The position numbers were made by a program, and so were the translations under genes. From Nocardioides furvisabuli (lineage in GTDB: Bacteria > Actinomycetota > Actinomycetes > Propionibacteriales > Nocardioidaceae), in the NCBI RefSeq assembly GCF_021083185.1, contig NZ_JAIGQB010000001.1, positions 1-64,000 on the forward strand: a DNA stretch of 64,000 nucleotides. The letters run 5' to 3'. Numbering within the stretch: the stretch's first letter is position 1; each line of letters opens with the position of its first letter. This document shows positions 41,169-58,497 of this stretch, piece after piece. The notes under the pieces were generated by a model. The model searched no databases. It was not told the DNA's origin and saw only the letters and a list, made by a program, of their open reading frames with translations.

Positions 41169-42452
41169 ATGGTCGACAGCGTCGAGATCGCAGTCGTCGG
41201 AGCCGGCTTCGCCGGACTCCGAGTAGCGCGGGATCTGAGCGCGGATGGCCACTCGGTCGTGCTGCTCGAAGCAGCCGGACGAGTCGGCGGCCGCGCATTT
41301 AGTCGAGAGTCCTCGACTGACCCCGGGACCACGGTGGAAGTGGGAGGAGCCTACTTCCACCGGCACCACCACGCCCGCCTCGCAGCAGAGGTCGACCGCT
41401 ACAACGTTGAGACGCAACCTGCGGCCCCGTTCAAGGTCTTTCGGAACAAGCTTGCGCCTGGGGGACAGGATTCTGCGTTCCCCATTCCGTTCGACGAATT
41501 CCTTGAGGCCGAGAGAGTCCTCTACTGCCTCATCCGCGACGCACGCCGGATCGATCCTCACGCAGGTCTTGAGAACCAGGACCTCAAAGACCTGGACATC
41601 TCCGCGCACCACTACCTGAACGAACTGAACCCCCCGCCGGTCACCAACCAGCTGCTGCGATCGTGGATCTGGAACATGATGGGCCAGCGCGTCGAGGACG
41701 CTTCAGCCCTGTGGGTTCTCCAACTGATCGCGTCGCACGACTACTCCGTACTCGGCGTACTGCTGTCGTTGGACGAAGTCATGGCTAGCGGCACCGCAAC
41801 ACTGACGACCGCGATGGCCAACGACGTGGCCGATCTCCGGCTTGGTGAGTCGGTGCACTCCATCCATCAGCAGGCGGACCGGGTCGACGTCACGTACGGC
41901 GCGGAGCGTCGGTTGCATGCCCGACACGTGGTTGTCGCGACGCCCCTGAACTGCATGCGAGACCTGCGGTTCGAACCTCCCTTGGCGGGCCCGCGGGCGG
42001 AAGTCGTTGCGGAAGGACACGGAGGTCGGGGCCTCAAACTTCTCATCCACGTGCATGACGTGCCGGAAGGCATCTCGTGCACCGGTGACGGCATCTTCCC
42101 GACCTTGTATGACTACCTACCCGCTTCCGACGGCGGGCGGATCCTTGTCGGCTTCACCGACCGGGATTCCTTCGACCCCACGGATAGCGACGCGATTGAA
42201 GCTGCGGTTCACCACTATCTGCCTGAGGCCGTCGTCGTCGGAACGGATTATCACGACTGGTGCGCGGATCCACATGTCCGTGCGCCGTGGGTTTCCCCGC
42301 GGATCGGCCAGGTGACGCGCGCCCACAAGTCGCTCGGTGAGCCACACGGTCGCGTGCACTTCGCGGGCTCCGACGTATCCCTACTCTTCCCGGGCTATAT
42401 CGAGGGCGCGCTAGAGACCGCCGACCGGGTGCGGTCAGAGATTCGCGGCTGA
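41169..42452 (+). CDS. 6-hlno: flavin amine oxidase, 6-hydroxy-L-nicotine oxidase type
   Basis: 427 residues, ATG preceded by GAGAGGGAAAC. FAD site AVVGAGFAGLRVARDL and RVGGRAFSRES. The stretches VGGAYFHRHHHARLAAEVDR, SALWVLQLIASHDYSVLGV, GDGIFPTLYDY, YHDWCADP and FAGSDVSLLFPGYIEGALET match, as I recall it, the pAO1 6-hydroxy-L-nicotine oxidase much better than generic monoamine oxidases. That enzyme oxidises the pyrrolidine C-N bond of 6-hydroxynicotine; the product opens to 6-hydroxypseudooxynicotine. Alternative: a related cyclic-amine oxidase, for example for an anabasine derivative. Confidence 0.82.
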   Translation: MVDSVEIAVVGAGFAGLRVARDLSADGHSVVLLEAAGRVGGRAFSRESSTDPGTTVEVGGAYFHRHHHARLAAEVDRYNVETQPAAPFKVFRNKLAPGGQDSAFPIPFDEFLEAERVLYCLIRDARRIDPHAGLENQDLKDLDISAHHYLNELNPPPVTNQLLRSWIWNMMGQRVEDASALWVLQLIASHDYSVLGVLLSLDEVMASGTATLTTAMANDVADLRLGESVHSIHQQADRVDVTYGAERRLHARHVVVATPLNCMRDLRFEPPLAGPRAEVVAEGHGGRGLKLLIHVHDVPEGISCTGDGIFPTLYDYLPASDGGRILVGFTDRDSFDPTDSDAIEAAVHHYLPEAVVVGTDYHDWCADPHVRAPWVSPRIGQVTRAHKSLGEPHGRVHFAGSDVSLLFPGYIEGALETADRVRSEIRG

Positions 42453-42875: not shown

Positions 42876-43106
42876 ATGAGCAGCATCGTCCGAGGCCACG
42901 ACCCTACTGCAACAAGGTGTGCCACCTCGGGAACAGCTCCTGTCCCACTCACGCAACTCAGGCCCGCGCGCACTACCCACCCGCGCTGCTGGACGGAGCT
43001 CGGCAACACCGCCCGCTCCTTGCCGACGTGCTTCTCGGACTGCAGTAACAGCGGCACCACCCGGGCGTACGTCTCGCCGCTGCATCCGCAAGGTGTTCGC
43101 ACCTGA
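42876..43106 (+). CDS. doubtful 76-residue Cys-containing ORF
   Basis: An ATG with AAGGAGG at ideal spacing opens a frame beginning MSSIVRGHDPTATRCATSGT with four to five Cys. Composition is not convincingly protein-like, and it lies in the decayed stretch before the binding-protein gene. It may be the preserved start of a lost gene. Listed only for its strong ribosome binding site. Confidence 0.25.
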   Translation: MSSIVRGHDPTATRCATSGTAPVPLTQLRPARTTHPRCWTELGNTARSLPTCFSDCSNSGTTRAYVSPLHPQGVRT

Positions 43107-43136
43107 TCCCGCTCACCGTTCGAAGGAAGAAACGAC

Positions 43137-44315
43137 ATGTACCTGACAACTGCTTCACGGATTCGCCGACTCACCGGCGCGGTCCTGGTGCTGGCGGTGA
43201 TGGGAGCCGCCAGCGGCTGCAGCACCGAATCCGGTGGTCAGTCCACTACTGCTACGACGTCCAACGACGACGAAGTGGCGCAGAACGCGACCGCCGCCAT
43301 TGAGAAGCTGTACGGCAACGGGACGTTCGCCGAACCGGCATCGACCGGCCCCAAGGCACAACCTGGCTACAGGGTCGCGATGGTGAGCTCGGGGACTCAG
43401 TCTCCGACAGGCACGTCCACGGCGAACGGGGCCAAGGAGGCCGCCGAGCTCCTTGGTTGGGATCTCTCCATCTATGACGGGAAGTACGAGCCCTCTGAGT
43501 ACCAAGAAGGCATCCGTCAGGCCGTCTCGCAGAACGTGGACGCGATCTGGCTCTACTCGATCGACTGCCCGCTAGTGAAGACGGCACTCGAAGAGGCCAA
43601 GAAGGCAGGCATCCCGGTCTTCTCCCAAGAGGCCGCCGACTGCAGTGATGTCGACCCCAGCGAGACGTCGTACTACGAGCGGAGCCTCGAGTTCTCCGAA
43701 GGTAGCTTCATCGAGTGGGGCGAGGGTCTCGGTGCATCGGAGGCTACGTGGCTGCTTTCCAAGCTCGGGTCCAAGGCCGACGTCATCGAGGTCAGCAACA
43801 CCGAGCTCGTCATCACCAAGGCTGTGCATGACGGCTTCCAGAAGGCCATGAAAGAGCAGTGCCCTGAGTGCAAGGTCACGACCCTCCCGATTCGTTTGGC
43901 GGACTTCGGGCCCGCCCTGCAGGAGAAGGTCTCGACCGCACTCCTCCGGAACCCCGAGGCGAATGGGCTGGCCTTTTCCTACGACGACCTCGTAACGGCT
44001 GGCGGTGCAGCAGCGGTCATGGCATCAGGACGGAACGACTCGCTGGAGGTCGTAGCCGGCAGCGGCTATGCGGCCAATATCGACCTCGTCCGGCAGAACA
44101 AGGGCCAGGACGCTGGGTGGACCTACGACGGCGCATATGAGGCCTGGTCGACAGCGGACATGATCAACCGGTACTTCGCTGGCGAGGACAGTGTTCCGTC
44201 AGGGGTGGGCATCTCGATGTTCGACCACGACCACGACCTTCCCCCCGAGGGCGAAGCTTGGTCGACCAGCATCGATTACCAGCCGGTTTTCAAGAAGGTA
44301 TGGGGCGTCTCCTGA
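43137..44315 (+). CDS. ABC transporter substrate-binding lipoprotein
   Basis: 392 residues, GAAGGAAG upstream. Signal peptide with hydrophobic core VLVLAVMGAA and lipobox ASGC, so it is membrane-anchored outside the cell. The body is a periplasmic-binding-protein type 1 fold of the sugar/ribose class (VAMVSSGTQSPTGTSTANGA, DAIWLYSIDCP, AGIPVFSQEA). The matching ATPase and permease are at 58498 and 60099. Its location between the amine oxidase and the PucR gene suggests uptake of the alkaloid or a breakdown product. A hairpin terminator follows. Confidence 0.85.
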   Translation: MYLTTASRIRRLTGAVLVLAVMGAASGCSTESGGQSTTATTSNDDEVAQNATAAIEKLYGNGTFAEPASTGPKAQPGYRVAMVSSGTQSPTGTSTANGAKEAAELLGWDLSIYDGKYEPSEYQEGIRQAVSQNVDAIWLYSIDCPLVKTALEEAKKAGIPVFSQEAADCSDVDPSETSYYERSLEFSEGSFIEWGEGLGASEATWLLSKLGSKADVIEVSNTELVITKAVHDGFQKAMKEQCPECKVTTLPIRLADFGPALQEKVSTALLRNPEANGLAFSYDDLVTAGGAAAVMASGRNDSLEVVAGSGYAANIDLVRQNKGQDAGWTYDGAYEAWSTADMINRYFAGEDSVPSGVGISMFDHDHDLPPEGEAWSTSIDYQPVFKKVWGVS

Positions 44316-44324
44316 TCCGTTCCA

Positions 44325-44356
44325 CCAGGGGGAGGACGTCCGCGCCCTCCCCCTGG
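44325..44356 (+). terminator. GC-rich stem-loop after the binding-protein gene
   Basis: CCAGGGGGAGG (44325-44335) and CCTCCCCCTGG (44346-44356) pair perfectly over 11 bases with a 10-nt loop, 9 bases after the stop codon. There is no T-run, which is common for actinobacterial terminators. Confidence 0.75.
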
Positions 44357-44423
44357 ATTGGACTCACCCGCCCGGTCTCGGTCCAGGGGTCAGGACACCG
44401 CTCGGACGTGTCACTGAGAGCCG

Positions 44424-44438
44424 TACAATCCAGTCATG
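44424..44438 (+). promoter_or_regulatory. leaderless promoter of the first PucR gene
   Basis: TACAAT at 44424-44429 is a near-consensus -10 box ending 6 bases before the ATG at 44436, with no Shine-Dalgarno sequence. Same geometry as at 61972. Confidence 0.6.
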
Positions 44439-45662
44439 TCGATCGAGCACGACCTGCGGGCCGTCGCAGATGAGCTCATCCTCAAGATCCCCGCTATCGG
44501 TGAGGAAGTCCGGGAACGCTGCCGCTCCGGCGCGCCCAATTACTACCGACGCAACGACCCGATGCTGCTTGAAACCGAACTTCCTAGCATCACTGGCGCA
44601 CTCACCAGCGTCATCCACGGCCTCCGCAACGCCCGACAGCTTCCGGAGGGTGCCTCCGAAGGCGCCTTGGAGGAAGCGAGAGTTGCAGCGCAGGCCGGCG
44701 TGGAGCTCACCGACCTTCTTCTGACCCGCCGGATCGGCCAAGTGGTCCTGTGGAACTGGATCCTCGAGACGGCCGTACGCATCGTCCCCGCGGGCCCGCG
44801 TCAGATCGCCGTCTTGAAGCAAGCCGCGGAGTATCACTTCGCGTGGAACGATCGCATCACGCATGACGTAGTAGCGACATACGAGCAGGAGAAGTCGGCG
44901 TACTTCTTCCACAGCCGGGACCGACAGCGTCGAGCAATCGTGACGGATCTTCTCAACGGAGTACCGACAGATACTGAGCAGCTCGGCTACAACCTGAAGG
45001 TCGACCATCTGGCCGTCGTCGTCTGGGGCGGTACTTCCAGGGTCGCGTTGAAGTCCTTGGCGGCGCTCTACGACGCGTCCCTCCTCGTGGTCGAAGGCAC
45101 AGGCGGGACATCCCTGGCTTGGTTGGGCAACAGCCGGCTCTGCGAATCCTTCGAGCGGAAGTTCGCAACCTTCCAGCCGCCGGCGGCCACCTTCGTTGCG
45201 GTCGGGGGGCCGCTCAACGGAATCGAGGGATTCCGTCGGGCACACAGGCAGGCGTGGCAGGCTTGCCGCGTAGGACGCCTCAGATCCGAACCGATCACCC
45301 GCTACCGCGATGTCGCTCTCGAAAGCGTCGTATTGCGCGACGCGCCCGCCGCTCGCGACTTCATGACGAGCGAGCTGGGGCCGATCGGAGAGGACGACGC
45401 GCGCACGCAACTGTTGCGCGAAACGCTGCGGGCCTACTTCGACACGGGGCAGAACGCAGCCGCTACCGCAGTCCGCATTCGCGTGCATGAACGAACCGTG
45501 GCGTACCGACTCAAGTCGATCGAGGAGCGCCTGGGGTTCCCGATCAACGACCGCCGCGACGAGCTCGCCGTTGCCCTACGTCTAGCCGACGTCCTCCACG
45601 ACACCAGCGATCGTCAACTGTCCATCCTCGGCGAAAGCAGCCAAGGCGAGACGGGCATCTGA
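44436..45662 (+). CDS. PucR/CdaR-family transcriptional regulator
   Basis: 408 residues. N-terminal helical sensor region (about 1-165), a middle GGDEF-like/CdaR region and a C-terminal HTH_30 domain: LLRETLRAYFDTGQNAAATA, then VRIRVHERTVAYRLKSIEER. Paralog of the regulator at 61984, sharing motifs along the whole length (RRAIVTDLLNGVP, HLAVVVWG, HRQAWQA). It sits between the binding protein and the dihydroxypyridine operon and is the prime candidate activator for that operon, as PucR-type PmfR is for pAO1 side-chain genes. Confidence 0.9.
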   Translation: MSIEHDLRAVADELILKIPAIGEEVRERCRSGAPNYYRRNDPMLLETELPSITGALTSVIHGLRNARQLPEGASEGALEEARVAAQAGVELTDLLLTRRIGQVVLWNWILETAVRIVPAGPRQIAVLKQAAEYHFAWNDRITHDVVATYEQEKSAYFFHSRDRQRRAIVTDLLNGVPTDTEQLGYNLKVDHLAVVVWGGTSRVALKSLAALYDASLLVVEGTGGTSLAWLGNSRLCESFERKFATFQPPAATFVAVGGPLNGIEGFRRAHRQAWQACRVGRLRSEPITRYRDVALESVVLRDAPAARDFMTSELGPIGEDDARTQLLRETLRAYFDTGQNAAATAVRIRVHERTVAYRLKSIEERLGFPINDRRDELAVALRLADVLHDTSDRQLSILGESSQGETGI

Positions 45663-45837
45663 AGCGACTCATACACCTCCGCGCCGGCCCCACCGCCAGA
45701 CCCGAGACGCTCGGCACGTCAGCAATCCCACAAAGACCACCCCCATCTTGTCGGAGCATGCAGAGGCGATCGGAATGGTCGGCTCCCAAACTGACGCAGC
45801 GCAGTCGCGCACCCGAGCGTTAGTAAAGGAGTTCCCC

Positions 45838-46137
45838 ATGATTCGCCACGTCTTTTCCTGGCGGGTGGCCGAGGGCCACAGCAACGACGACGTCATCGAG
45901 CTGTTGAACACCCTTCGTGAGCCGTACCCCTACATCAAGTACTGGGAGCTCGGCGCACATGAAGGCGACCCGGGCGACAACGGCCAGCCCTTCAGCGGTG
46001 TGCTGATCAACGACTTCGAGTCCTGGGATGACCTGCAGAAGTACTCGATCGACGAGTTCCACCTCGAGGTCGTGGCTAAGCTCAAGCCGAAGCTGGCCGA
46101 GCGCGCCGTAGTGGACTTCGTGCGTGAGGAGTCCTGA
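45838..46137 (+). CDS. Dabb/EthD-type ferredoxin-like small protein
   Basis: 99 residues starting MIRHVFSWRVAEG, with AAAGGAG six bases upstream. MIRHVFxW, the NGQPFSGVLINDFESWDDLQ segment and YSIDEFHLEVVAKLKP are typical of stress-responsive alpha/beta barrel (Dabb) proteins, dimeric ferredoxin-like folds that include olivetolic acid cyclase and related enzymes. It overlaps the cyclase-family gene by one base and heads the operon containing the dihydroxypyridine hydroxylase. It may act on the unstable trihydroxypyridine product or assist the hydrolase. Known members have no common reaction, so this is inference. Confidence 0.8.
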   Translation: MIRHVFSWRVAEGHSNDDVIELLNTLREPYPYIKYWELGAHEGDPGDNGQPFSGVLINDFESWDDLQKYSIDEFHLEVVAKLKPKLAERAVVDFVREES

Positions 46138-47066
46138 TGGGCGAAAGGGCAGGCATCAAGGTCGCTACCAGTCCCTGGGGCCCCGATGACCAACTCGGTG
46201 CTCTCAACCACCTGAGCCCTGAGGGCTCCGCGTCAATCCTGGCGCGCGTCGACGGTTCCAAGAGCTACGACCTCAGCATTGACTACTTCGTTGGAATGCC
46301 CAGCTTCCAGGCGGCAGGCGACCCGAGCTACCAGCTCTTCATGAGCCACACACCCAGCGGTACCGTCGTCGACAACATGAACGGGGTGGGGGAGACCGGC
46401 AATCGGCACGTCTGCTACTCCGGCGACGTCGTCTTCATGTACACCCATACAGGGACGCACATCGACTCCCTGAGTCACTTCGGAGTCGACGGACATATCT
46501 ACAACGGGTTCTCGGTCGAGGACAATCTTGGAAGCCGCGGCTGGACCAAGGGCGGGGCCGAGGTCATCCCGCCTATCATCACCCGTGGCGTCCTTCTCGA
46601 CGTAGCCAAGAGCCACCAGGTCGAGTGTCTGCCCGATTCATACGCGATCACCATCGAGGACTGTCAAAAGGTCCTAGACAATGTGGGCATCACCCTGCAG
46701 GCCGGTGACGTCGCGATGGTCCGGACGGGACGCATGGGTTTTTGGCCCGACGGTTCAAGGGTCCTGGGCAATCCTCCCGGGCTCAGCCTGGAAGCGGCCA
46801 AGTGGCTTACCGCTCAGGGCATCTCGGCCATCGCTGCCGACCAGGAGTGCGTCGAAGTCGGGCCGTCCCAGCACGAGGACAACTGGCTGCCTGGGCACTG
46901 TCACTTCCTTGCCGAGGCCGGAGTTCCGATGATCGAACTGGTCAACTTGGAGGACCTGTCGCGGGACGACGTCAACGAGTTCTGTCTGATCGCCGCCCCC
47001 ATCCGTTTGCGCGGCGCGAGCGGCGCACCGCTTCGCCCCATCGCGCTGCCGCTGCGCGCCAGTTAA
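46137..47066 (+). CDS. cyclase-family metal-dependent hydrolase, candidate trihydroxypyridine ring opener
   Basis: 309 residues. The metal motif HTGTHIDSLSHF at about residues 102-113 (HxGTHxDxxxH) defines the PF04199 cyclase/kynurenine formamidase/isatin hydrolase family; WGPDDQLGALNHLSPE and the C-terminal CHFLAEAGVPMIELVNLEDL are also typical. Family members hydrolyse amide bonds, including the ring amide of isatin. The gene shares one base with the Dabb gene and lies 33 bases before the dihydroxypyridine hydroxylase. A role in opening the trihydroxypyridine ring to 2-oxoglutaramate is inferred. Confidence 0.85.
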   Translation: MGERAGIKVATSPWGPDDQLGALNHLSPEGSASILARVDGSKSYDLSIDYFVGMPSFQAAGDPSYQLFMSHTPSGTVVDNMNGVGETGNRHVCYSGDVVFMYTHTGTHIDSLSHFGVDGHIYNGFSVEDNLGSRGWTKGGAEVIPPIITRGVLLDVAKSHQVECLPDSYAITIEDCQKVLDNVGITLQAGDVAMVRTGRMGFWPDGSRVLGNPPGLSLEAAKWLTAQGISAIAADQECVEVGPSQHEDNWLPGHCHFLAEAGVPMIELVNLEDLSRDDVNEFCLIAAPIRLRGASGAPLRPIALPLRAS

Positions 47067-47099
47067 GCGCGACGAGAGCCACGGACAAGGAGGAACGGG

Positions 47100-48284
47100 A
47101 TGACCATGCCGAAGGTAGCTGTCGTCGGCGGATCGATCGCCGGTCTGACAGCGGCGAACGTGCTGCGTGACGCCGGTTGCGACGTCGACGTCTACGAACG
47201 CAGCGACACACTGCTGTCTGGTTTTGGCACCGGGATCGTGGTTCAACCCGAGCTCGTCCGATACCTGCTGGAGCGCACCTCGACAACACTGGAAGACATC
47301 AGCGTCCCCAGTCACGAGATGCGGTACTTCGACGCTGCTTCTGGAGAGAGCACGGGCAATGTTGAAGCCGGATGGCGCTTCACGGCCTACAACGCCGTCT
47401 ACCAGAAGCTGCTCGACTCCTTCGGGGAGCAGCGGTACCACCTGGGCAAGGAACTCGTTAGCGTGACCCCCGGGACAGACAACTCCTCAGCCGTCTTCGC
47501 CGACGGCAGCGAAGTCGTTGCCGACCTCATCGTATGTGCGGACGGCGGCGGTTCTGTCGCGAGATCCCAACTGCTCGGTAGGACCCCCGACTACGCCGGC
47601 TACGTGACGTGGCGTGGGATGGTGGACGAACGTGACGTCTCGGCCGAAACGTGGGAATTCTTCCAGGGCGCCTTCACCTACGGGCTGCTTCCTGACGGAC
47701 ACATCATCGCGTATCCCATCAGTCAGGTGTCTTCCGAAGGTGTGGTGACGGGCGAAACCCGGCTCAACTTCCAGTGGTACTGGAACGTTGAGGCCGGAGC
47801 GGCACTCGACGAACTGATGACGGCGAACGACGGCAGCAGGCGTCCCGTTTCCGTTCACTTCCCGGCGCTGCCGAAGTCCAGCCTCGAAACCTTCCACGGC
47901 CGCGCGACCACCCAGCTGGCGTCCGTCTTCCGTGACCTCATCACCGGGGCTCCCCAGCCGTTCGTCACCATCGTCGCCGACGCCGATGTCCCGCGGATGG
48001 CGTTCGACCGAGTCGTTCTCATCGGTGATGCCGCGTTCACGCCACGGCCACACGCCGCGGCCGGAGCTGCGAAGGCGGCTGCGGATGCATGGACGCTCGC
48101 CGATCGGCTCGTCGAAGCGGACGGGGACGTCCGTCAGGCGTTGACGTCGTGGGAACCCGAGCGATTGATCGTAGGGCAGGCCTACCTGGCCAAGGTGCGA
48201 GCCATGGCCGCTGTTCTGCAGCACGGGGGAGAGTTCCCCCCAGGGGCGTCCGAGTACCGATTCGGTCTCCCCCAACCCGCGTAA
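47100..48284 (+). CDS. dhph: 2,6-dihydroxypyridine 3-hydroxylase homolog (FAD monooxygenase)
   Basis: 394 residues, AAGGAGGAAC before the ATG. Class A flavin monooxygenase: GxGxxG-type VVGGSIAGLTAANVLRDAG, then VYERSDTLLSGFGTGIVVQ, and the second FAD motif VVLIGDAAFTPRPHAAAG. The segments GYVTWRGMV, FTYGLLPDGHIIAYPI, RLNFQWYWNV and LQHGGEFPPG closely track the pAO1 enzyme DHPH as I recall its sequence. It converts 2,6-dihydroxypyridine to 2,3,6-trihydroxypyridine with NADH and oxygen. Confidence 0.88.
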   Translation: MTMPKVAVVGGSIAGLTAANVLRDAGCDVDVYERSDTLLSGFGTGIVVQPELVRYLLERTSTTLEDISVPSHEMRYFDAASGESTGNVEAGWRFTAYNAVYQKLLDSFGEQRYHLGKELVSVTPGTDNSSAVFADGSEVVADLIVCADGGGSVARSQLLGRTPDYAGYVTWRGMVDERDVSAETWEFFQGAFTYGLLPDGHIIAYPISQVSSEGVVTGETRLNFQWYWNVEAGAALDELMTANDGSRRPVSVHFPALPKSSLETFHGRATTQLASVFRDLITGAPQPFVTIVADADVPRMAFDRVVLIGDAAFTPRPHAAAGAAKAAADAWTLADRLVEADGDVRQALTSWEPERLIVGQAYLAKVRAMAAVLQHGGEFPPGASEYRFGLPQPA

Positions 48285-48361
48285 TACGGGGCACGTCCCC
48301 GCCTGCCCGCGTTGCGACTGACGCAATATTGGAACGGCGCCCAGCCGAATAGGAGAAACCG

Positions 48362-49120
48362 ATGCAGTTGCTCAACGAGTTCGAAGTAGCGCTTCCGCCC
48401 AAGAAGACGTGGACCCTGCTCACAGACCTGGAGAAGGTCGCACCGTGTCTTCCCGGGGCCTCGATCACCTCGGTCGACGGCGACGACTACCACGGCCGCG
48501 CCAAGATCAAGGTTGGTCCGATCACCGCCGAGTACAAGGGCGTCGCACAGTTCAAGGAACTTGACGAGAGCGCGCACACGGCCGTTCTCCTGGCACGCGG
48601 CAAGGACGCCCGCGGGCAAGGAGATGCCACCGCAAACGTTAGGGCGACACTCCATCCGAAGGGCGGAGGTACCCGCGTCGTCGTCGAGACGGAGCTCGCG
48701 CTCACCGGCAAGGTCGCTCAGTTCGGACGAGGAGTGCTCGCCGACGTGAGCGGGGCACTCATGACCATGTTCGCGCAGCGGCTGCAAGAGATGGTGGCGG
48801 CCGAAGGCGGGTCCGACTCGATCGCGTCCTCGGACACCGTTGCATTGGCCGGCGCCCAGGCACCTTCGGAGACCGCGGCGACGCCCGCCCCGACGGCGTC
48901 CACCCAGTCGACCCAGACGTCGACCCAGACGTCCGGCGTGGCGGGCTCGCGTGGCAGCGAGCGCGATGACGAGGTGCTGGACGTCCTCGCGTTGGCCGGC
49001 GGCATGTCGTGGGCCAAGGCTCTTCCGACCGGTGGGGCGCTCGTCAGCGTCGTAGCCGCACTGATCAGTGTCTTCGCCGCGGGATACGCGTCGGCGCGGG
49101 CACGGTCCGCCAATCGTTGA
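48362..49120 (+). CDS. CoxG-type SRPBCC protein with C-terminal membrane anchor
   Basis: 252 residues, AGGAGAAACC upstream. Residues 1-145 are a CoxG-like SRPBCC domain (NEFEVALPPKKTWTLLTDLE, VAPCLPGASITSV, KVGPITAEYKG). A Ser/Thr/Gln-rich linker with repeated STQ units follows, then a hydrophobic segment (ALVSVVAALISVFAAGYASA) that probably anchors it in the membrane. In CO dehydrogenase operons CoxG helps recruit the enzyme to the membrane. Its place before the M-S-L genes suggests the same for this molybdenum hydroxylase. Confidence 0.85.
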   Translation: MQLLNEFEVALPPKKTWTLLTDLEKVAPCLPGASITSVDGDDYHGRAKIKVGPITAEYKGVAQFKELDESAHTAVLLARGKDARGQGDATANVRATLHPKGGGTRVVVETELALTGKVAQFGRGVLADVSGALMTMFAQRLQEMVAAEGGSDSIASSDTVALAGAQAPSETAATPAPTASTQSTQTSTQTSGVAGSRGSERDDEVLDVLALAGGMSWAKALPTGGALVSVVAALISVFAAGYASARARSANR

Positions 49121-49154
49121 TGTCGCAACTCACCGCTGATTGAGGGAGCATGCC

Positions 49155-50006
49155 GTGAAGCCACCGAAGTTTCGTTATGTCGCACCGAGGACGCTGGACG
49201 AGGCTGTCGAGCATCTGGCGGCTGACCCGGACGCGAAAGTGCTGTCGGGTGGTCAGAGCTTGATGCCGCTCTTGGCGATGCGACTGGCCGCGCCCTCGAT
49301 CCTGGTCGACCTACAGCATGTGCCCGGCCTCGATGGCATCGAGGACCAGGGCTCATCTGTCCTGATCGGAGCGGGCGTGACGCACCGAGAGATCGAGCGC
49401 TCAGATGTGATCGCACAGCGTCTACCGATCTTGTCGTCGGCAGTGGTCCACATTGCCCACCCGCAGATCCGGTCACGCGGCACCTTCGGCGGAAGCACTG
49501 CGCATGCCGACCCATCCGGAGAGTGGCCGACCGTCCTGCTCGCTCTTGGCGCCACCATGCACGCGGTGGGTCCTCGTGGACGGAGGACGATCGAGGCCGA
49601 CGACTTCTTCGTTGGCCCTTTCACCTCCACGCTCGACGAGGACGAGATCCTGACTCACGTCTCGGTGCCCACCACCCGCACTGCCTGGTCGTTCCAGGAA
49701 GCGGCGGTCAAGCGGGGCGACTACGGACTTGCGCTTGTCGCTGCCACCGGCATCCCTCGCGATGGACAGCTTGCCGAGGCCAGGGTCAGCGTCGGCGCGG
49801 CGGTTGGCTCGGTCCGACGCCTCACGGACGTCGAACGTCTTCTGTCTCGCGGCCCCGTGACCGACGCTCTCGCCGAGGAGGCAGCCCTGACCGCAGCTGC
49901 GTCGGTCGACCCGATCTCGGACATCCATGGGAATAGCGAGTATCGCCGGAAGCTGGTCGCCTCACTCGTAAGGCGTGCCGTGCTCGAACTCAAGAACGGA
50001 GCGTGA
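49155..50006 (+). CDS. molybdenum hydroxylase FAD subunit (CoxM/NdhM/KdhM type)
   Basis: 283 residues from GTG 49155 (GAGGGAG upstream). KVLSGGQSLMPLLAMRLA and the IRSRGTFGGSTAHADPSGEW segment are the two FAD-binding signatures of the xanthine-dehydrogenase medium subunit. It passes electrons from the 2Fe-2S subunit to the acceptor. First of a contiguous M-S-L set, as for nicotine dehydrogenase of pAO1. A second M gene begins at 63404. Confidence 0.9.
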   Translation: MKPPKFRYVAPRTLDEAVEHLAADPDAKVLSGGQSLMPLLAMRLAAPSILVDLQHVPGLDGIEDQGSSVLIGAGVTHREIERSDVIAQRLPILSSAVVHIAHPQIRSRGTFGGSTAHADPSGEWPTVLLALGATMHAVGPRGRRTIEADDFFVGPFTSTLDEDEILTHVSVPTTRTAWSFQEAAVKRGDYGLALVAATGIPRDGQLAEARVSVGAAVGSVRRLTDVERLLSRGPVTDALAEEAALTAAASVDPISDIHGNSEYRRKLVASLVRRAVLELKNGA

Positions 50007-50007
50007 C

Positions 50008-50517
50008 GTGTCCACCACCCCCGAGGAGCGCCTGGACGTCTCCATGACGATCAATGGCCGCCGCTACCGCTCAACGGTAGAAGCACGCCGAACGCTGGCG
50101 GACTTCATCCGCGAGGATGCGCAACTGCCCGGCACCAAGCTCGGCTGCGAGCACGGAGTGTGCGGCGCATGTACGGTGCTGCTCGACGACTTGCCGGCGC
50201 GATCGTGCCTCACCCTCGCCGTGCAGGCGGAGGGTCGCCAGATCCGCACCGTCGAGAGCCTCGCCGAGGGCCAGGAGCTGAACACCCTTCAGCGCGCGTT
50301 CCGTGAGCAGCACGGACTCCAGTGCGGCTTCTGCACGGCCGGCTTCCTCATGACGGCAACGGCGTTGCTGGAGGAGAACCCCACCCCGACACGAGACGAC
50401 ATCGTCGAGACGGTTTCGGGCTCGCTGTGTCGGTGTACCGGCTACCAGACCATCGTCTCGGCGATCGAACAGGCGGCGGCCGAGGGTCAGAACGTCACGA
50501 ACGGAGGCGACCAGTGA
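50008..50517 (+). CDS. molybdenum hydroxylase 2Fe-2S subunit (CoxS type)
   Basis: 169 residues from GTG 50008, two bases after the M-subunit stop. Plant-ferredoxin-type cluster LGCEHGVCGACTVLLDD with the fourth Cys in RSCLT, and the second cluster GLQCGFCTAGFLM with SLCRCTGYQTI. Both 2Fe-2S clusters are complete. The stop overlaps the L-subunit start as GTGA. Confidence 0.92.
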   Translation: MSTTPEERLDVSMTINGRRYRSTVEARRTLADFIREDAQLPGTKLGCEHGVCGACTVLLDDLPARSCLTLAVQAEGRQIRTVESLAEGQELNTLQRAFREQHGLQCGFCTAGFLMTATALLEENPTPTRDDIVETVSGSLCRCTGYQTIVSAIEQAAAEGQNVTNGGDQ

Positions 50518-52919
50518 AGAAGCTCGACAAGCACCAGCACATGAGCACGCCGGCCGTGGCTGCTCGATCCGTCGGAACCCGGGTGCTGCGGTCCGAAGAC
50601 CCTCGCCTTCTCACCGGGCGTGGCGAGTTCATCGCCGACATCGACCTGCCACGCCAACTGCACGTGGCGTTCGTACGCAGTCCTGTGGCACACGCGCGCA
50701 TCACCAACATCGACTTGTCCGCGATCCGTGACGCGGATGGTGTCGCACTGGCGTGGTCCGGGAAGGACGTGGCCGCATTCTGCGAGGGCCTGGTCGGTGA
50801 GATGGCAGTCGAAGGCTGCGTCCCAACCACGATGCCGCTGCTTGCGGGCGACGAAGTGCTGTACGTCGGTGAGCCTGTCGCCGTGGTCGTCGCTGAATCG
50901 CGCTACGCGGCAGAGGATGCCTGCGAGCTGATCGACTGGGACTTCGAGGAGCTGCCTGCCGTCATCAACATGGACGCGGCGGCCGCCGGCGGGCCTGTGG
51001 CAAACCCGCAACTGCCCGACAACCTCGGACTCAACGGGGGCGCCAGCTTTGGCGATGTCTCAGCGGCATTCGACCAGGCCGCTCAAATCGTGGAGGGGCG
51101 GTTCTACACCTGCCGGGTGTCGGCGGCACCCATGGAGACTCGCGGCGTCATCGCCGACTACGAGTGGGCGTCGAAGACGCTTCGCCTGTGGTCGAACACT
51201 CAGATGCCGCATTACCTCAAGTACATGCTGACCGCCTACCTCGGTTTCCCGGAGCAGAGCGTCGAAGTCATCACTCCCGACACCGGCGGCGGGTTCGGCA
51301 TGAAAGCACACGTCTATCCCGAAGAGATGTTGCTGCCGCTCCTCGCGAGAGAAGTCGGCCGGCCCGTCAAGTGGATCGAGGACCGACGAGAGAACCTCAT
51401 CGCCGGCGCCCATGCACACGAGCAATACGTCGACATCGCCTATGCGCTCGACGCTGAGGGAAAAATCACCGGAGTCCGTACGCACGCTCTTGGTGACGGA
51501 GGCGCCTACCACATGCCCCCGTGGTCCATGGCCGTAGAGCCCTGGTGCGCCGTGGTCATGACACCCACCGGTATCTATGACGTGCCCGCTGCGGAGTACA
51601 CCTACAAGGCCGCAGCCACCAACAAGACGCCTGTCGGCGCTTACCGCGGCGTCGGCTACATGGCAGGGACATTCGCCCGCGAGTGTCTCGCCGACGATGC
51701 CGCCCGTGCGCTGGGAATGTCGCCCTTCGATTTCCGCCGACACAACGTCGTGCGTGAGTTCCCGTGGACCAATCCGCAGGGCATCGTCTACCAGGAGGGA
51801 AGCTGGCGGCAGACGATCGACGCGCTCGAGGAGATGGTCGACTACCCGGCTTTCCTGCATCGCCAGGCCCAACTGCGCGAGCAGGGCCGATACATCGGAC
51901 TTGGCCTCAGCTGCTTCGTGGAGAGCAGCGGCGAGAGTTCGGCGACCAGTCTCGAGCATGGGCTCGGCGACGTCTACCACGACACAGCGACGGTCCGTCT
52001 GAATCCCAACGGGACCGCCAACGTGACCATCGGTCTCTCCGCGCAGGGCCAGGGGCTCGCAACGACGATGGCTCAGATGGCAGCCGACACCTTGGGGATC
52101 AAGGTTGAGGACGTCAGCGTCCAGACAGCGCGGTCGACGGACCATGCCTACGGCTCGGGCACCATTGGCAGCCGTGGCGCAGTCGTCGCGGGTGGGGCCG
52201 TGGCACGAGCCGCAGATGTCGTCAGGGAAAAGGTGCGGCAGGTAGCCGCCCACATGTTGGAAGCGGCGACTGACGACATCGAGTTGGTCGACGGTCTCGC
52301 GTCGGTCAAGGGCGTGTCAGACGCATCCGTGTCCATCGCCGACGTGGCCACCGCTATCTACTTCGACCTCGACTCCTGGCCCAAGGACTTTGAGCCGAGC
52401 CTCGAGGCGACGCAGGCCTACGACCCGTCTCAGGCGATGTTCAGCAACGGGGGCCACGCGATCCTGGTCGAACTCGAAGCCGAGACCGGGTTTGTGCGTT
52501 TCGAGAAGATCTACTCCGTCGAGGACTGCGGCACAGTCATCAACCCCAACATCGTTGAGGGACAGATCCGAGGTGGGGTCTTGCAGGGCATCGGCGCATC
52601 GGTGTTCGAGGAACTCGCGTACGACGAGTCAGGTCAGATCCTCACGACCACTTTCCTCGACTATGGGCTGCCCACCATGGACGTCGCGCCGCCGTTCGAG
52701 ATTCACCATCTCGAGACGCCTTCCTCACACTCGGCTTCGGGTGTGAAGGGGATGGGTGAGTCGGGTCTGATCGCGGCTCCAGCGGCCGTCCTGAACGCTG
52801 TCAACGACGCCCTCTCCCCGTTCGGCGTGGTGCTGCGCGACCTGCCTCTGACGCCCGAGAAGGTGCTGGATGCGATGTCAGTTGCAACGACTGCCTCCGG
52901 TCCGGACGAAGGTCTGTGA
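50514..52919 (+). CDS. molybdenum hydroxylase large (molybdopterin) subunit, first set
   Basis: 801 residues from GTG 50514. It is a xanthine-dehydrogenase/CO-dehydrogenase type large subunit: TRVLRSEDPRLLTGRGEFI at the N-terminus, TGGGFGMKAHVYPEE for molybdopterin contact, AYRGVGYMAG in place of the CO-dehydrogenase active-site loop AYRCSFR, and the catalytic Glu in GVKGMGESGLIAAP. So it hydroxylates a heteroaromatic ring, not CO. The contiguous M-S-L order suggests nicotine dehydrogenase (position 6), but ketone dehydrogenase (position 2) cannot be excluded. Confidence 0.88.
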   Translation: MKKLDKHQHMSTPAVAARSVGTRVLRSEDPRLLTGRGEFIADIDLPRQLHVAFVRSPVAHARITNIDLSAIRDADGVALAWSGKDVAAFCEGLVGEMAVEGCVPTTMPLLAGDEVLYVGEPVAVVVAESRYAAEDACELIDWDFEELPAVINMDAAAAGGPVANPQLPDNLGLNGGASFGDVSAAFDQAAQIVEGRFYTCRVSAAPMETRGVIADYEWASKTLRLWSNTQMPHYLKYMLTAYLGFPEQSVEVITPDTGGGFGMKAHVYPEEMLLPLLAREVGRPVKWIEDRRENLIAGAHAHEQYVDIAYALDAEGKITGVRTHALGDGGAYHMPPWSMAVEPWCAVVMTPTGIYDVPAAEYTYKAAATNKTPVGAYRGVGYMAGTFARECLADDAARALGMSPFDFRRHNVVREFPWTNPQGIVYQEGSWRQTIDALEEMVDYPAFLHRQAQLREQGRYIGLGLSCFVESSGESSATSLEHGLGDVYHDTATVRLNPNGTANVTIGLSAQGQGLATTMAQMAADTLGIKVEDVSVQTARSTDHAYGSGTIGSRGAVVAGGAVARAADVVREKVRQVAAHMLEAATDDIELVDGLASVKGVSDASVSIADVATAIYFDLDSWPKDFEPSLEATQAYDPSQAMFSNGGHAILVELEAETGFVRFEKIYSVEDCGTVINPNIVEGQIRGGVLQGIGASVFEELAYDESGQILTTTFLDYGLPTMDVAPPFEIHHLETPSSHSASGVKGMGESGLIAAPAAVLNAVNDALSPFGVVLRDLPLTPEKVLDAMSVATTASGPDEGL

Positions 52920-53758
52920 CCGGAGTGGTTGGGACGGGCCCCCACAGGCTGCGCGTCGCCCTACTCCAGGTGGCGTACGGCGACGACGAGCCCTTGGCTG
53001 ATCGGGTCGAGCGCGTCAGCCAGTGGATTCGTGGACTCGAACGCGCAGACTTGGTGGTGCTTCCGGAGCTCTGGGCTCATGGCGGATTTGCCTCTGCAAC
53101 GTGGGAAACGACGGCCGAGCCGATCAACGGTCCCATCATCGAGCAGATGACCGCGGTCGCCCGCGATGCTGGCGTCTGGCTCCACGCCGGATCGATCATC
53201 GAAAGAGCGGCAGAGAACGGCGATCAAGGCGCCGAGGGACGCGGACTGTGGAACACCTCTGTGCTGCTCTCGCCACACGGAACCGTCCACAAGACGTATC
53301 GCAAGATCCACCGTTTCGGTTTCGGTGACGGCGAACCGCGCCTGCTGGAGGCGGGGACGGAACTCGCCGTCGCCGAGCTCGCGCACGCCGGCAGAGCCGA
53401 CCGCATCGGCCTAGCGACCTGCTACGACCTCCGGTTCCCAGAACTCTTCCGTGAGCTGGGCAACCTCGGTGTCGACGTCATCGTCCTCCCGGCGGCCTGG
53501 CCGATGCCCAGGGTCGAGCACTGGAGGCTGCTGGGGCGAGCCCGAGCTCTCGAGAATCAGACGTGGGTGCTGCAGTGCAATACCGCAGGAACTCACAGCG
53601 GTATCGAGATGGGAGGCCACTCCCAGGTCGTCTCGCCGACAGGCGAGGTCGTAGCCGAGCTGGGCGCCGACGAGGGCGTCCTGTTCGCCGATATCGATCT
53701 GAGTCTCGTCGCGTCAGTCAGGGCGAACTTCCCGGTCTTGGCCGACCGCCGGATGTGA
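52916..53758 (+). CDS. nit: carbon-nitrogen hydrolase, omega-amidase (2-oxoglutaramate) type
   Basis: 280 residues; GTG overlaps the large-subunit stop. The nitrilase triad is present: Glu in VVLPELWAHGG, Lys in YRKIHRFGF and Cys in ATCYDLRFPEL. The Nit2/omega-amidase-like signature fits hydrolysis of 2-oxoglutaramate to 2-oxoglutarate and ammonia, the last step of pyridine-ring catabolism in pAO1-type clusters. Operon position supports this. Confidence 0.85.
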   Translation: MTGVVGTGPHRLRVALLQVAYGDDEPLADRVERVSQWIRGLERADLVVLPELWAHGGFASATWETTAEPINGPIIEQMTAVARDAGVWLHAGSIIERAAENGDQGAEGRGLWNTSVLLSPHGTVHKTYRKIHRFGFGDGEPRLLEAGTELAVAELAHAGRADRIGLATCYDLRFPELFRELGNLGVDVIVLPAAWPMPRVEHWRLLGRARALENQTWVLQCNTAGTHSGIEMGGHSQVVSPTGEVVAELGADEGVLFADIDLSLVASVRANFPVLADRRM

Positions 53759-54155
53759 GCAGTCGGCGCATCTTGTCGGGTCGGTAACGTGGCGCTGGCG
53801 GCACGATGTGGGCGCGTGCGTGCCACGAGCGGCTGTGAGCCCTACTTGTTGACCTGGCGGTTCGTCCATGTTGTGGCTTCATGAGGGTCTCGTGCCGCCC
53901 GCGAAGGAACACCTGAGTCACTGACCGCCCGCAGTTCGCGCGAGCAAGGCGTCATAGCGGTCGCGGGTGGATCGGAGTCGGCAGAGCGCCGGCATGGCGT
54001 GGCCTGACTGCGCCGCTACCCGCGGCGTGCGCTGTCGTGGTGCGCGGCCACGCCGATGCGGGGCCGACTGGTGTAGCAACGATCCAGGCGCATCCCCCGT
54101 TGACCCCTCTCCTGCGATTGTCCCCAGGGCCGGTGGTTTGGTCGCCCGACGGCAG
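53759..54155. other. convergent intergenic region before a terminator
   Basis: About 400 bases between the nitrilase (plus) and the cupin (minus). No gene is supported; frames here have Arg/Ser/Pro-rich chance composition. It ends at the hairpin at 54156. Confidence 0.3.
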
Positions 54156-54186
54156 CCGCCCCGGTCACCTGTGATGACCGGGGCGG
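54156..54186. terminator. bidirectional stem-loop terminator
   Basis: CCGCCCCGGTCA (54156-54167) pairs perfectly with TGACCGGGGCGG (54175-54186) around a 7-nt loop. Placed between convergent genes, 19 bases from the cupin stop. Confidence 0.8.
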
Positions 54187-54205
54187 CGAGGATGCGCGGT
54201 GCCGT

Positions 54206-54556: not shown

Positions 54557-54648
54557 TCTGGTCCTACCGTTCTGCAGCCTCGTGCTGCTGTGATGGGTGT
54601 GGTGTGGCCCGCGCGGCGCTGCGGTCGCGAACGCCGCGCGGAGCCGGC

Positions 54649-55719
54649 TCAAAGGCGGAGCTGGTTAGCGAGCCAGTCCGCCATGCGTAGACGCGGGGCG
54701 GGGCCGAGGTTGTGGCAGCAGTGATCGCCCTCAGGCTCGAGATCGATGACGATCTCGGCGTTGACTGCGTACTCCTGGAGGAGGTCCAGTTCCGTGATGG
54801 GCGTCTCGTCCTTAGCGCCGTGCATGACGTAGGTGGGGACCTTCAGCCCGGCCAGTACGGGGCGCACGTCGATGTGCTCCCGGACGCGGGCCTGCGCGGT
54901 GTCGAGATCGGGCGACTTGGTGACGTACTGCCAGCTGAGCTTCGTCATGGGGTACTCGAAGTCCCAGTCGTCCATCTGGACGAAACCCCCCCAGGTGACA
55001 CACGCACGGAAACGGTCGTCCATCGAGGCAGCGCGGAGCGCGTAATGTCCACCGAGGCTGCGACCCAGAACGCCAATCCGGTCCCGGTCGATTTTCGCCT
55101 CCAGCGTCTCGAGGTAGTCGACTACCCGTGAGGTGTAGCGGTGATAGTCACCGGCCAGCGCTACGTCTTCGAACATCTCACCCTGGCCGGGGCCGTCGAA
55201 GGTGAAGGTGGCGACGCCACGCTCGAGGAGTAGATTCTCGAACATGTAGCTCTCCTCCTTCGTGCTTTCGAGGCCGCCGAGCAGCACCGCGCACGGGACC
55301 GGGCCGTCAGCTCCCTTAGGCAGGCGCAGGTAGCCGATGATCACGGTGTCGTCGATCGGCAGGTCGACGCGCTCGGCCGGCGGGTCGAGCAGGGGAGCGG
55401 CTCGGTGGTAGAGGCCCGCCTTTCGGAGTTGGCCCCTCGGGCGTCGCTCGTCGAACCACAGGAACTGTGCGTACTGAGCGGCCATCGATCCGACCCAGAA
55501 CCAGTAGCCTGCGGTGAGGTCGTTGCCCTCCTCGAGGGCCGTATCGCCCATGGCCTCGTACTCGTCGGCCTTCGCCATCCAGAAGTCGAACCACGACGTG
55601 GCCGCGTCCCGACGCTGCGCGGCCAAGAGGTCGGCGAACGGCAGACCGTCCATCAGTAGGCGGCCCCAGTTCAGCATCTCTTCTTCTGCCGTCGGGACAT
55701 GCGGGGTCTCGGTCGTCAT
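54649..55719 (-). CDS. dhponh: 2,6-dihydroxypseudooxynicotine hydrolase homolog (alpha/beta hydrolase, C-C bond cleaving)
   Basis: 356 residues from MTTETPHVPTAEEEM (GGAGAAGAG upstream). Nucleophile Ser in VLGRSLGGHYAL, Asp in VMHGAKDETPI and His in the distinctive EGDHCCHNLG, a sequence I recall from the pAO1 enzyme. The N-terminal helical cap (FDFWMAKADEYEAMGD) is also as in that family. The enzyme cleaves 2,6-dihydroxypseudooxynicotine to 2,6-dihydroxypyridine and N-methyl-GABA. Divergent from the second large subunit. Confidence 0.87.
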   Translation of the reverse strand: MTTETPHVPTAEEEMLNWGRLLMDGLPFADLLAAQRRDAATSWFDFWMAKADEYEAMGDTALEEGNDLTAGYWFWVGSMAAQYAQFLWFDERRPRGQLRKAGLYHRAAPLLDPPAERVDLPIDDTVIIGYLRLPKGADGPVPCAVLLGGLESTKEESYMFENLLLERGVATFTFDGPGQGEMFEDVALAGDYHRYTSRVVDYLETLEAKIDRDRIGVLGRSLGGHYALRAASMDDRFRACVTWGGFVQMDDWDFEYPMTKLSWQYVTKSPDLDTAQARVREHIDVRPVLAGLKVPTYVMHGAKDETPITELDLLQEYAVNAEIVIDLEPEGDHCCHNLGPAPRLRMADWLANQLRL

Positions 55720-55775
55720 CTCTTCTCCATAGGTCGGGAGCCAGCATCCTCCCGACTGCACGAACGCCAGCCGTC

Positions 55776-55848
55776 TACATGTTCCGCGAAACCTGAGCAA
55801 TTCTTTGCCGCCCACCTAGCAACTGGAGGTCACATGTACATGTTCTGC
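55776..55848. promoter_or_regulatory. repeated TACATGTTCYGC boxes in the divergent promoter region
   Basis: TACATGTTCCGC at 55776-55787 and TACATGTTCTGC at 55837-55848, 61 bases apart, lie between the divergent hydrolase and large-subunit genes. The core ACATGT is palindromic. They may be operator sites for one of the PucR regulators. Confidence 0.4.
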
Positions 55849-55949
55849 CCATAGTGCGGTTGCGCTTGTCCCGCCTGCGAGCAGCGCAAGCGTTCCGTGC
55901 GTGGCGACACTTCGTGTCTCGATACATCGCACACGAGTGAGGACGAGCA

Positions 55950-58322
55950 GTGAGTAGACCTGGCGCTTCCGGCGGCCTCGGCCCTTCAGCTAAGCGATAC
56001 GTGGGACAGCCAGTGCGTCGCCGCGAGGACCCTCGCCTCCTGCGGGGTGATGCACGATTCGTGGACGACGTGGACCTCCATGGGCAGCTGTACATGAGCG
56101 TGGTGCGTTCATCTGAGGCGCATGCGCTCGTTGTCTCTGTGGACGCCTCTGCTGCCAGACGCGCACCGGGCGTGCGGCTCGTCATCACGGCCGAGGACAT
56201 CGACGCTGAGGTCCCGCTCGAACAAATCGGGTATCACGAGGTCTACCCCCAGATCGATGACTATCTGCACCCGGTCTTCGCGGGTGACCGCGTCCGATAC
56301 GTAGGACAACCGGTTGCCGCAGTCATCGCTGACACGCCTTACCTGGCGGAGGATGCCGCCGGCTTGGTGGAGGTGACCTACGACCTTCTGCCTCCTGTGC
56401 TCGATCCGCAGTACGCGATGACCGACGAGGCCGAACCGCTCTTCGAAGGGCAGTCGAACGAGGCTGTGCGGATCGTGAAGCAGTACGGCGACGTTGCCGG
56501 CGCCTTCGGGAAGGCTGCGCACATCGTCGAGGGCCGATACGTGGTCGGGCGCCATTCTGGTGTCCCGATGGAGACCAGGGGTTGTATCGCTGAGCCCGAC
56601 CGTGGACGCAAGCAGCTGTTCATGTGGGGCCCGGTCCACACCCACGACTGTCAGCGCCTGATCGCTCAGGTCCTTGAGCTGCCGCTCGCTGACCTGCGAA
56701 TGAAGCATGTCGACATCGGAGGCAACTTCGGTGTGAAGGGTGGGGTCTTCCCTGAATACATCATGGTCGGTTGGGCAGCGATGCGATTGGGACGCCCGGT
56801 CAAATGGACCGAAGACCGTCTCGAGCACATGGTGGCGAACGCGCACGCTCGCGAACAGGTCCATGAGATGTCCGCAGCCTTCGACGCCGACGGCGTCCTC
56901 CTGGCGTTGAAGGACGAGATCTGGCACAACCACGGTGCCTTCATCCGACAGGCGGAGCCCCTCGTCAGTGACATCACTGTCGGGATGGTCCCGGGCCCCT
57001 ACCGCGTGCCGGCCTATGACGGTCTCTTGCACGTCGTGGTCTCGAACAAGACACCTCTGTCCGCATACCGTGCCCCAGGCAGGTTCGAAGGAACCTTCGC
57101 GCGCGAGCGACTGTTCGACCTCGCTGCCGAGCAGATCGGCATCTCCCAGGTCGAGATCCGCCGACGCAACCTGTTGACCGAAGCCGACCTCCCGTTCACG
57201 CCGGGCATGGACATCTGTTTTGAGCCGTACCACTTCGACTCGGGTGACGTCGTCGACCACTTGGACAAGGCACTTGCATCGGCACACTTCGACGAATGGG
57301 AGAAGGAGGCCGCGGAACTACGAGCGCAGGGCCGACTCGTCGGCAACGGCATCGGCATGCTGATGGACAAGGCCGGCCTCGGCTTGTACGAGACCAGCGC
57401 CATCGACGTGGACGCGTCGGGACGGATCCGAGTTCGAACAGGCGCCTCATCCGTCGGCCAGGGCATCGAAACCGTCTTGGCGCAGATCGTTGCGGAGGAG
57501 CTCCAAGTTGACCCGCAGCTGATCGATGTCATCCATGGCGATACCGAGCTCGTACCAGAGGGCGTCGGTTCATGGTCCAGTCGGTCCACCGTCCTGGCCG
57601 GAGGAGCCGCGCGCCAGGCTGCTCTCGACACGCTTGCCAAGGCCAAGCGGCTCGCCAGCGAGATGCTTGAGGCGAACGTTGACGACCTGGTCCTCATCGA
57701 CGGCCGCATCGTGGTGTCCGGTCTGGAGCAGGAGGGCTTGAGTCTGGCGCAGATCGCCGAGCGTTGGGATGGGTGGTCGGCCAGGTTGGCCAACGACGAG
57801 CCGGGTCTCGGCGCGCAGGCGGTCTACCTGGATGAGCACATGAACTACCCATACGGGGTCACGCTCGTTCAGATCGAGATCGACCCGGCGACCGGCGGTC
57901 ACACCCTGAGGCGCTTCCTCACCAGCACCGAAGCCGGACGAGCCATCAATCCGATGACCACCCGCGGCCAAGTGATCGGCGCAGCGGCACAAGGCATCGG
58001 CGGCGCCCTCTATGAGGAGTTCCTCTACGACGATGCCGGTCAGCCGCTGGCGACGTCCTTCATGGACTACCTTCTGCCGACCTCCCTCGACGTGCCTGAC
58101 GTCGACTTCTTCATGACAGAGGACGCTCCGACGCCCAACAACCCGTTCGGAGCAAAGGGGTTGGGTGAGGTCGGCCTCATCGCTGTGGGCGCAGCCGTGG
58201 CCGGTGCCATCGACGACGCCTTCGGCGAGGGAGTACGCACGATCAAGGTGCCCGTCCCGCCGGAAACGCTCTGGCGGCGGACCCACCCCACGCCGCCCGC
58301 CGACGAAGCGGACACGGTGTGA
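55950..58322 (+). CDS. molybdenum hydroxylase large subunit, second set (ketone-dehydrogenase candidate)
   Basis: 790 residues from GTG 55950 (GAGGACGAG upstream). QPVRRREDPRLLRGDARFVD, DIGGNFGVKGGVFPEYI, AYRAPGRFEGTFARERL and catalytic Glu in GAKGLGEVGLIAVG mark a full large subunit with a complete Mo site. It is separate from M and S genes and lies opposite the 2,6-dihydroxypseudooxynicotine hydrolase, whose substrate is made by the ketone dehydrogenase in pAO1. This suggests KdhL, but the assignment against the first set needs alignment. Confidence 0.87.
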   Translation: MSRPGASGGLGPSAKRYVGQPVRRREDPRLLRGDARFVDDVDLHGQLYMSVVRSSEAHALVVSVDASAARRAPGVRLVITAEDIDAEVPLEQIGYHEVYPQIDDYLHPVFAGDRVRYVGQPVAAVIADTPYLAEDAAGLVEVTYDLLPPVLDPQYAMTDEAEPLFEGQSNEAVRIVKQYGDVAGAFGKAAHIVEGRYVVGRHSGVPMETRGCIAEPDRGRKQLFMWGPVHTHDCQRLIAQVLELPLADLRMKHVDIGGNFGVKGGVFPEYIMVGWAAMRLGRPVKWTEDRLEHMVANAHAREQVHEMSAAFDADGVLLALKDEIWHNHGAFIRQAEPLVSDITVGMVPGPYRVPAYDGLLHVVVSNKTPLSAYRAPGRFEGTFARERLFDLAAEQIGISQVEIRRRNLLTEADLPFTPGMDICFEPYHFDSGDVVDHLDKALASAHFDEWEKEAAELRAQGRLVGNGIGMLMDKAGLGLYETSAIDVDASGRIRVRTGASSVGQGIETVLAQIVAEELQVDPQLIDVIHGDTELVPEGVGSWSSRSTVLAGGAARQAALDTLAKAKRLASEMLEANVDDLVLIDGRIVVSGLEQEGLSLAQIAERWDGWSARLANDEPGLGAQAVYLDEHMNYPYGVTLVQIEIDPATGGHTLRRFLTSTEAGRAINPMTTRGQVIGAAAQGIGGALYEEFLYDDAGQPLATSFMDYLLPTSLDVPDVDFFMTEDAPTPNNPFGAKGLGEVGLIAVGAAVAGAIDDAFGEGVRTIKVPVPPETLWRRTHPTPPADEADTV

Positions 58323-58497
58323 GGCACGACACCCGGAACACGTCAAAGGGTCCTCTCGCATTGTCTGAAACCAACTAGTCCAACTCGGCGTAAAAGGTCC
58401 ACAGTGGCTCGTCTTCGCGGCCCGCAAGGCCCCGACGGCGTTGAAGGCCGAACCACGCAGCGGACCCAGGTGCACAGCTGCCACCTCAGGAGTGCCA

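Follow-up and report, generated by a model that had tools for sequence, protein, structure and literature searches.

By its gene content, the 64-kb window (the whole stretch of DNA analysed here, 64,000 nucleotides) holds a nicotine cluster of the pyridine-pathway type, similar to that of pAO1. The cyclase-family protein encoded at 46137-47066 is predicted to be the Nocardioides orthologue of pAO1 PKC and a relative of HpoH. It would be a metal-dependent hydrolase that opens 2,3,6-trihydroxypyridine (THP) to 2-oxoglutaramate, a reading to which we assign a probability of about 0.87. This function is well supported, yet the hypothesis and a precedent have already been published and it is not new. 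What looks new is the Dabb-family gene that precedes the cyclase gene and, beside it, a correction of the bond that is broken (N1-C2). The Dabb protein possibly assists the cyclase in opening the ring, perhaps by acting as a tautomerase. The assignment would close the pyridine pathway of nicotine in another genus and place a single ring-opening hydrolase in several different upstream contexts.

Table 1. Features of the nicotine cluster in the 64-kb window.
Feature	Position	Strand	Evidence
6-hydroxynicotine oxidase-like protein	41169..42452	+	56.4% to pAO1 6HLNO; PF01593
Dabb-family gene, candidate cyclase partner	45838..46137	+	PF07876; start and stop read directly; 61% identity to pAO1 Dabb
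Cyclase-family hydrolase, pAO1 PKC orthologue, probable THP ring opener	46137..47066	+	PF04199; 74% identity to pAO1 PKC
Predicted metal-binding motif HTGTHIDSLSH, codons H104 to H114	46446..46478	+	H104, H108, D110 and H114 invariant in 51/51
Codons H254 to E267, invariant His and Glu aligned with kynurenine formamidase	46896..46937	+	51/51; profile alignment
2,6-dihydroxypyridine 3-hydroxylase (DHPH)	47100..48284	+	54.6% identity to pAO1 DHPH
CoxG-like protein	48362..49120	+	PF06240; 58% to pAO1 over its first 141 residues
NdhA, NdhB, NdhC-like molybdenum hydroxylase subunits	49140..52919	+	47, 59 and 61% to pAO1; Pfam domains
NIT-like amidase (2-oxoglutaramate amidase type)	52916..53758	+	PF00795; 44.6% to pAO1 NIT
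Cupin gene	near 54209-54556		53% to pAO1 cupin
2,6-dihydroxypseudooxynicotine hydrolase (DHPONH)-like protein	54649..55815	-	52.8% to pAO1
KdhC-like ketone dehydrogenase subunit	55950..58322	+	61.9% to pAO1; Pfam

The cyclase gene is an ORF of 309 residues on the forward strand. Its product matches PF04199 (putative cyclase) with 86.9 bits (E 1.9e-24), above the curated cutoff of 23.1 bits. A preliminary description of this DNA had placed the gene 33 bases ahead of the DHPH gene and given it a one-base overlap with a Dabb gene. The start and stop codons confirm this layout: the TGA stop of the Dabb gene and the ATG of the cyclase gene have one base in common (TGATG at 46135-46139), and the cyclase stop codon (47064-47066) is followed, after the 33-base gap, by the ATG of DHPH at 47100. 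The amidase that had also been placed downstream is present. It is located 5.85 kb away, behind CoxG and three NdhABC-like genes, and is not an immediate neighbor. The order Dabb, cyclase, dhpH, SRPBCC (CoxG) and carbon-nitrogen hydrolase is also present on pAO1, so the arrangement around the cyclase is not due to chance.

Among 12 cluster proteins compared with pAO1, the cyclase/PKC pair is the most conserved. The window end cuts KdhA, and KdhB-, MoxR-, XdhC-, FolD-, MABO- and PurU-like genes come next, within 16 kb. A sugar-type ABC system lies on either side of the nicotine genes, with a binding protein at 43137-44315 and ATPase and permease genes at 58441-61175. It is a possible nicotine uptake system. 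The binding protein has no meaningful match (E 0.068) with the one found at locus L011, another cyclase locus. Two OYE/FMN-type oxidoreductases of about 700 residues are encoded close to the cluster (28181-30346 and 37651-39741). The best match in the genome to pAO1 nicotine blue oxidoreductase has 41% identity and is found about 0.5 Mb from the cluster (G000:C1:551572-552111, L134). A promoter and terminator scan of region 43000-56200 was uninformative, with 0 promoter-like and 3 terminator-like sites versus shuffle means of 1.2 and 5.4.

The HxGTHxDxxxH motif of the cyclase corresponds to residues 104-114. In an alignment of 51 relatives (35 close and 16 distant cyclases), residues H104, H108, D110, H114, D235, E240, H254 and E267 are invariant in all sequences. 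H104, H108, D110 and H114 are the counterparts of isatin hydrolase His69, His73, Asp75 and His79, whose roles have been described (PMC6117287). The kinship with isatin hydrolase put forward in the preliminary description thus holds for the metal residues, which match by alignment. It does not extend to the GLQC/GLAS signature, which is absent; the region reads GVPMIELVN. On this ground, isatin hydrolase proper was rejected as an identity for the cyclase. Kynurenine formamidase was also rejected, the arylformamidase model giving 29.5 bits for a cutoff of 223.05. In a profile alignment, E267 falls on the glutamate of the I(L/I)E motif of kynurenine formamidase, where the cyclase reads MIE. Because of this alignment, a two-metal site is possible in the cyclase. 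The formamidase motif is stated to be absent in HpoH (PMC6117287); read literally, this agrees with the MIE of the cyclase at the I(L/I)E position. Residues E237, P204, G211 and H256 are fixed in 35/35 close relatives and found in at most 2/16 distant ones, which makes them candidates for substrate choice. With its identity to PKC and with DHPH, amidase and Dabb neighbors in the same order as on pAO1, the protein would fall within the PKC/HpoH subfamily.

In the proposed reaction, THP produced by DHPH would be taken by the cyclase as its keto tautomer, piperidine-2,3,6-trione. A metal-activated water molecule would attack the C2 carbonyl beside the ketone and N1-C2 would be broken. By analogy with isatin hydrolase and kynurenine formamidase, the predicted metal ligands are H104, H108 and D110, H114 and H254 with D235 or E240 may form a proton relay, and E267 would perhaps complete a second metal site. 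The NIT-type amidase would then turn 2-oxoglutaramate into 2-oxoglutarate and ammonia. We recomputed the formula balance given earlier for this step (THP plus water equals 2-oxoglutaramate) and it holds. Atom counting shows that the nitrogen stays on THP C6 in 2-oxoglutaramate, so that N1-C2 must break; this is the bond to which the isatin analogy of the preliminary description had pointed. In the accessible parts of PMC6214936, N1-C6 cleavage by PKC is written in both the abstract and the text. We find it scarcely credible that the cyclase breaks N1-C6 as worded there: by atom counting this cleavage would yield the other amide, and the numbering used in that article may differ. The bond printed for pAO1 PKC deserves checking against the amidase substrate.

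The preliminary description had presented this ring opening as a step with no settled enzyme. This part does not stand. The abstract of the primary HpoH paper (2016) reportedly names HpoH as the THP ring-opening enzyme. For pAO1, the accessible text of a 2018 article reports nicotine-dependent expression of PKC, puts forward hydrolysis of THP to alpha-ketoglutaramate as its reaction, and states that HpoH is 77% similar to PKC (PMC6214936). The activity of HpoH is cited as confirmed at one place and as 'proposed' at another in the accessible text of PMC6117287. C-N opening of THP by a polyketide cyclase in Rhodococcus and Arthrobacter is described in the part of PMC9304392 that was available. 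No assay of pAO1 PKC itself was found in the literature searched, as far as its accessible text goes.

A different route was also considered, in which a dioxygenase opens THP on the way to maleamate and the cyclase works on a later product. The maleamate route is mentioned as an older proposal in the accessible text of a 2018 review (PMC6122326), where THP catabolism is called unclear, and C-C opening of THP is described for another bacterium in the available part of PMC9304392. However, no ring-cleaving dioxygenase family was found among the cluster proteins scanned, which are a part of the ORFs and of the genome, and the amidase homologue in the cluster suits 2-oxoglutaramate. We set the dioxygenase route aside as very unlikely on the basis of the family scan. 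Hydrolytic opening of THP to 2-oxoglutaramate, as first suggested for this gene, is supported by homology, gene neighborhood and the literature.

The cyclase gene is not absent from most DHPH operons, and linkage agrees with what had been proposed: a close DHPH adjoins the cyclase in 7/7 Nocardioides genomes and 10/10 plasmids. A search of 215 Nocardioides genomes, including that of the window, gave 13 DHPH-like matches, 7 of them at 65% identity or above and all 7 beside the cyclase. The other 6 (36-43%) were taken as paralogues and left out of the count; none adjoins a close cyclase. The plasmid count comes from 10 records with DHPH, and several of these plasmids are near copies of pAO1 according to the accessible text of PMC10494377. 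DHPH matches were also sought across the phylum, in a sample of 396 genomes, and occurred in 11 of them. All except the window's own are 41-46% identical and were not counted as DHPH. In three further Nocardioides genomes (G124, G166 and G171), the close cyclase adjoins an amidase, and that site has no DHPH.

A cyclase scan of named genomes returned 80 of 81 confirmed loci, 40 close (at least 59% identity) and 40 distant (at most 56%), with near duplicates among them (L005/L006, L017/L018, L023/L036 and L032/L035). The contexts of the close loci are DHPH (17), Rieske dioxygenase with SDR and reductase (6), LLM monooxygenase (5), other Rieske (2) and none of these (10). The last group includes L009 (SDR and reductase, cut) and L038, and some of its loci are from cut contigs. 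In all, 23/40 close loci are without a DHPH call, which makes THP a less certain substrate for those members. L038, from Arthrobacter nitrophenolicus, is pAO1-like, with a broken cyclase reading frame and a partial DHPH match, due to decay or sequencing error. In a quick tree, 35 close cyclases with mixed contexts form one clade (SH-aLRT 99). Among the Rieske-type loci, L010 has the order Rieske ferredoxin, dioxygenase alpha subunit, small ORF, SDR, reductase, Dabb, cyclase, amidase. We take the hpo names to be HpoBCDF for the dioxygenase, HpoE for the enzyme oxidising its product, then HpoH and HpoI. If these names hold, the L010 order would run from B to I, with Dabb in the hpoG slot. The hpo-like Rieske-dioxygenase clusters with the same cyclase are probably a second route to THP. 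Should these clusters convert 2-hydroxypyridine into THP, the cyclase would serve two unrelated routes to this compound, and this would be the best argument from sequence for THP as the substrate.

Other contexts were also observed. At L002, L011, L024, L029, L030 and L031, the Dabb-cyclase pair is accompanied by genes for an LLM flavin monooxygenase and for an amidase. These clusters probably represent another pyridine-type pathway. Several Rieske-type clusters (L012, L014, L016, L019, L025 and L027) encode a DSBA-like protein near the cyclase, and in some of these no NIT-type amidase was found. In the distant clade (L041-L075, L077 and L079-L082; 45-56% identity; Bacteroidota, Massilia relatives and others), every metal ligand is retained and no Dabb gene lies nearby. 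Within 5 kb, the 40 distant cyclases have for the most part regulators and mixed genes as neighbors.

The Dabb protein matches PF07876 with 49.6 bits (curated cutoff 25). Its gene immediately precedes the cyclase gene in 39/40 close loci; near the distant cyclases, none was found at 40 loci (tblastn E 1e-4; profile E 0.01). The stop of Dabb and the start of the cyclase share 1 or 4 bases in 33/39 cases and are within 10 bases of each other in 39/39, spacing being counted from the first possible start. L076 has a close cyclase and no Dabb within 10 kb, L083 has a partial Dabb copy at a contig end, and in G166 the Dabb gene is split by a contig break. A profile of the Dabb subfamily (E at most 1e-12) matches exactly 10 of the 215 Nocardioides genomes, the same 10 that have a close cyclase; the 6 genomes whose cyclase is distant give no match. 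The chance of such a coincidence is 2e-17 if genomes are independent, which they are not within one genus. The window's Dabb also matches 11 plasmids, all of which carry the cyclase. Dabb and cyclase distances correlate (r = 0.765 over 33 pairs, with 0/2000 permutations as high; r = 0.643 without L032, L037 and L039). Since common descent can give such a correlation, r was not used as evidence for contact.

The structure model of Dabb (pLDDT 94.9) resembles hydroxynitrile lyase, olivetolic acid cyclase and 4-methylmuconolactone methylisomerase; its fold matches also include proteins of unknown function. H4, Y69 and H75 are invariant in 33/33 sequences. According to the accessible text of PMC7962319, olivetolic acid cyclase has Tyr72 and His78 as catalytic residues. 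They have the same spacing as Y69 and H75, and the two pairs are likened by spacing and fold, not by residue alignment. Among the matches listed in the literature searched, which left most subscription papers outside, none describes a role for a cyclase-linked Dabb gene. The words Dabb and barrel are absent from the text of PMC6214936.

These data can be read as a two-component system, in which Dabb does a required step and the cyclase by itself works slowly or not at all. Such a step would be, for example, acid-base tautomerisation that turns aromatic THP into the trione, or protection of THP against autoxidation. The near-constant position of Dabb upstream of close cyclases but not of distant ones, the overlapping stop and start codons, the shared distribution in genomes and plasmids, a fold like that of proton-moving enzymes and the three invariant residues are consistent with it. 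On the other hand, L076 lacks Dabb, tight linkage indicates shared use and not a reaction, and H, Y and H at these positions may be general in Dabb proteins. We propose the two-component system tentatively, with the odds somewhat against it. It extends the single-hydrolase explanation, so that the confidences of the two overlap. By the same token, it is conceivable, with the odds somewhat against it, that a Dabb-cyclase module, with a co-translated tautomerase or shielding Dabb handing the trione on, is common to nicotine, 2-hydroxypyridine-type and other pyridine pathways. If true, these pathways share a two-gene function rather than a lone hydrolase. Through the near-constant Dabb partner it can be tested directly whether a helper, for instance a tautomerase, must act on aromatic pyridinetriols before they are hydrolysed.

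Returning to the cyclase, its structure model has a pLDDT of 84.6, with values below 50 at 51-71 and at 101-103, the latter right before the motif. The closest structure is 5ibz, solved as a 'novel cyclase (pfam04199)' (Z 30.9 over 253 residues, 32% identity). However, 5ibz reads QGSTQWD where the cyclase has HTGTHID, so that both histidine ligands are missing, which counts against the function proposed for the cyclase. Isatin hydrolases come next (Z 20.1-20.6). They have the metal ligands and the His79 equivalent in common with the cyclase and cut a cyclic alpha-keto amide beside the ketone, which we count as a likeness, but identity is about 20% and their signature is the one missing here. 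Kynurenine formamidases follow (Z 17.1-18.2), and KynB has the metal ligands in common; its glutamate is the one aligned with E267. HpoH of Rhodococcus rhodochrous PY11 is known by description: per the accessible text of PMC6214936, it acts on THP, with the amidase HpoI. It differs in belonging to a 2-hydroxypyridine pathway. The nearest system is PKC (Q93NG4) of pAO1 from Paenarthrobacter nicotinovorans, with Dabb, DHPH, CoxG and amidase neighbors in common. There, the start of dhpH overlaps the cyclase end by 4 bases instead of the gap seen in the window, and the amidase gene comes directly after CoxG, whereas in the window the NdhABC genes are located between the two.
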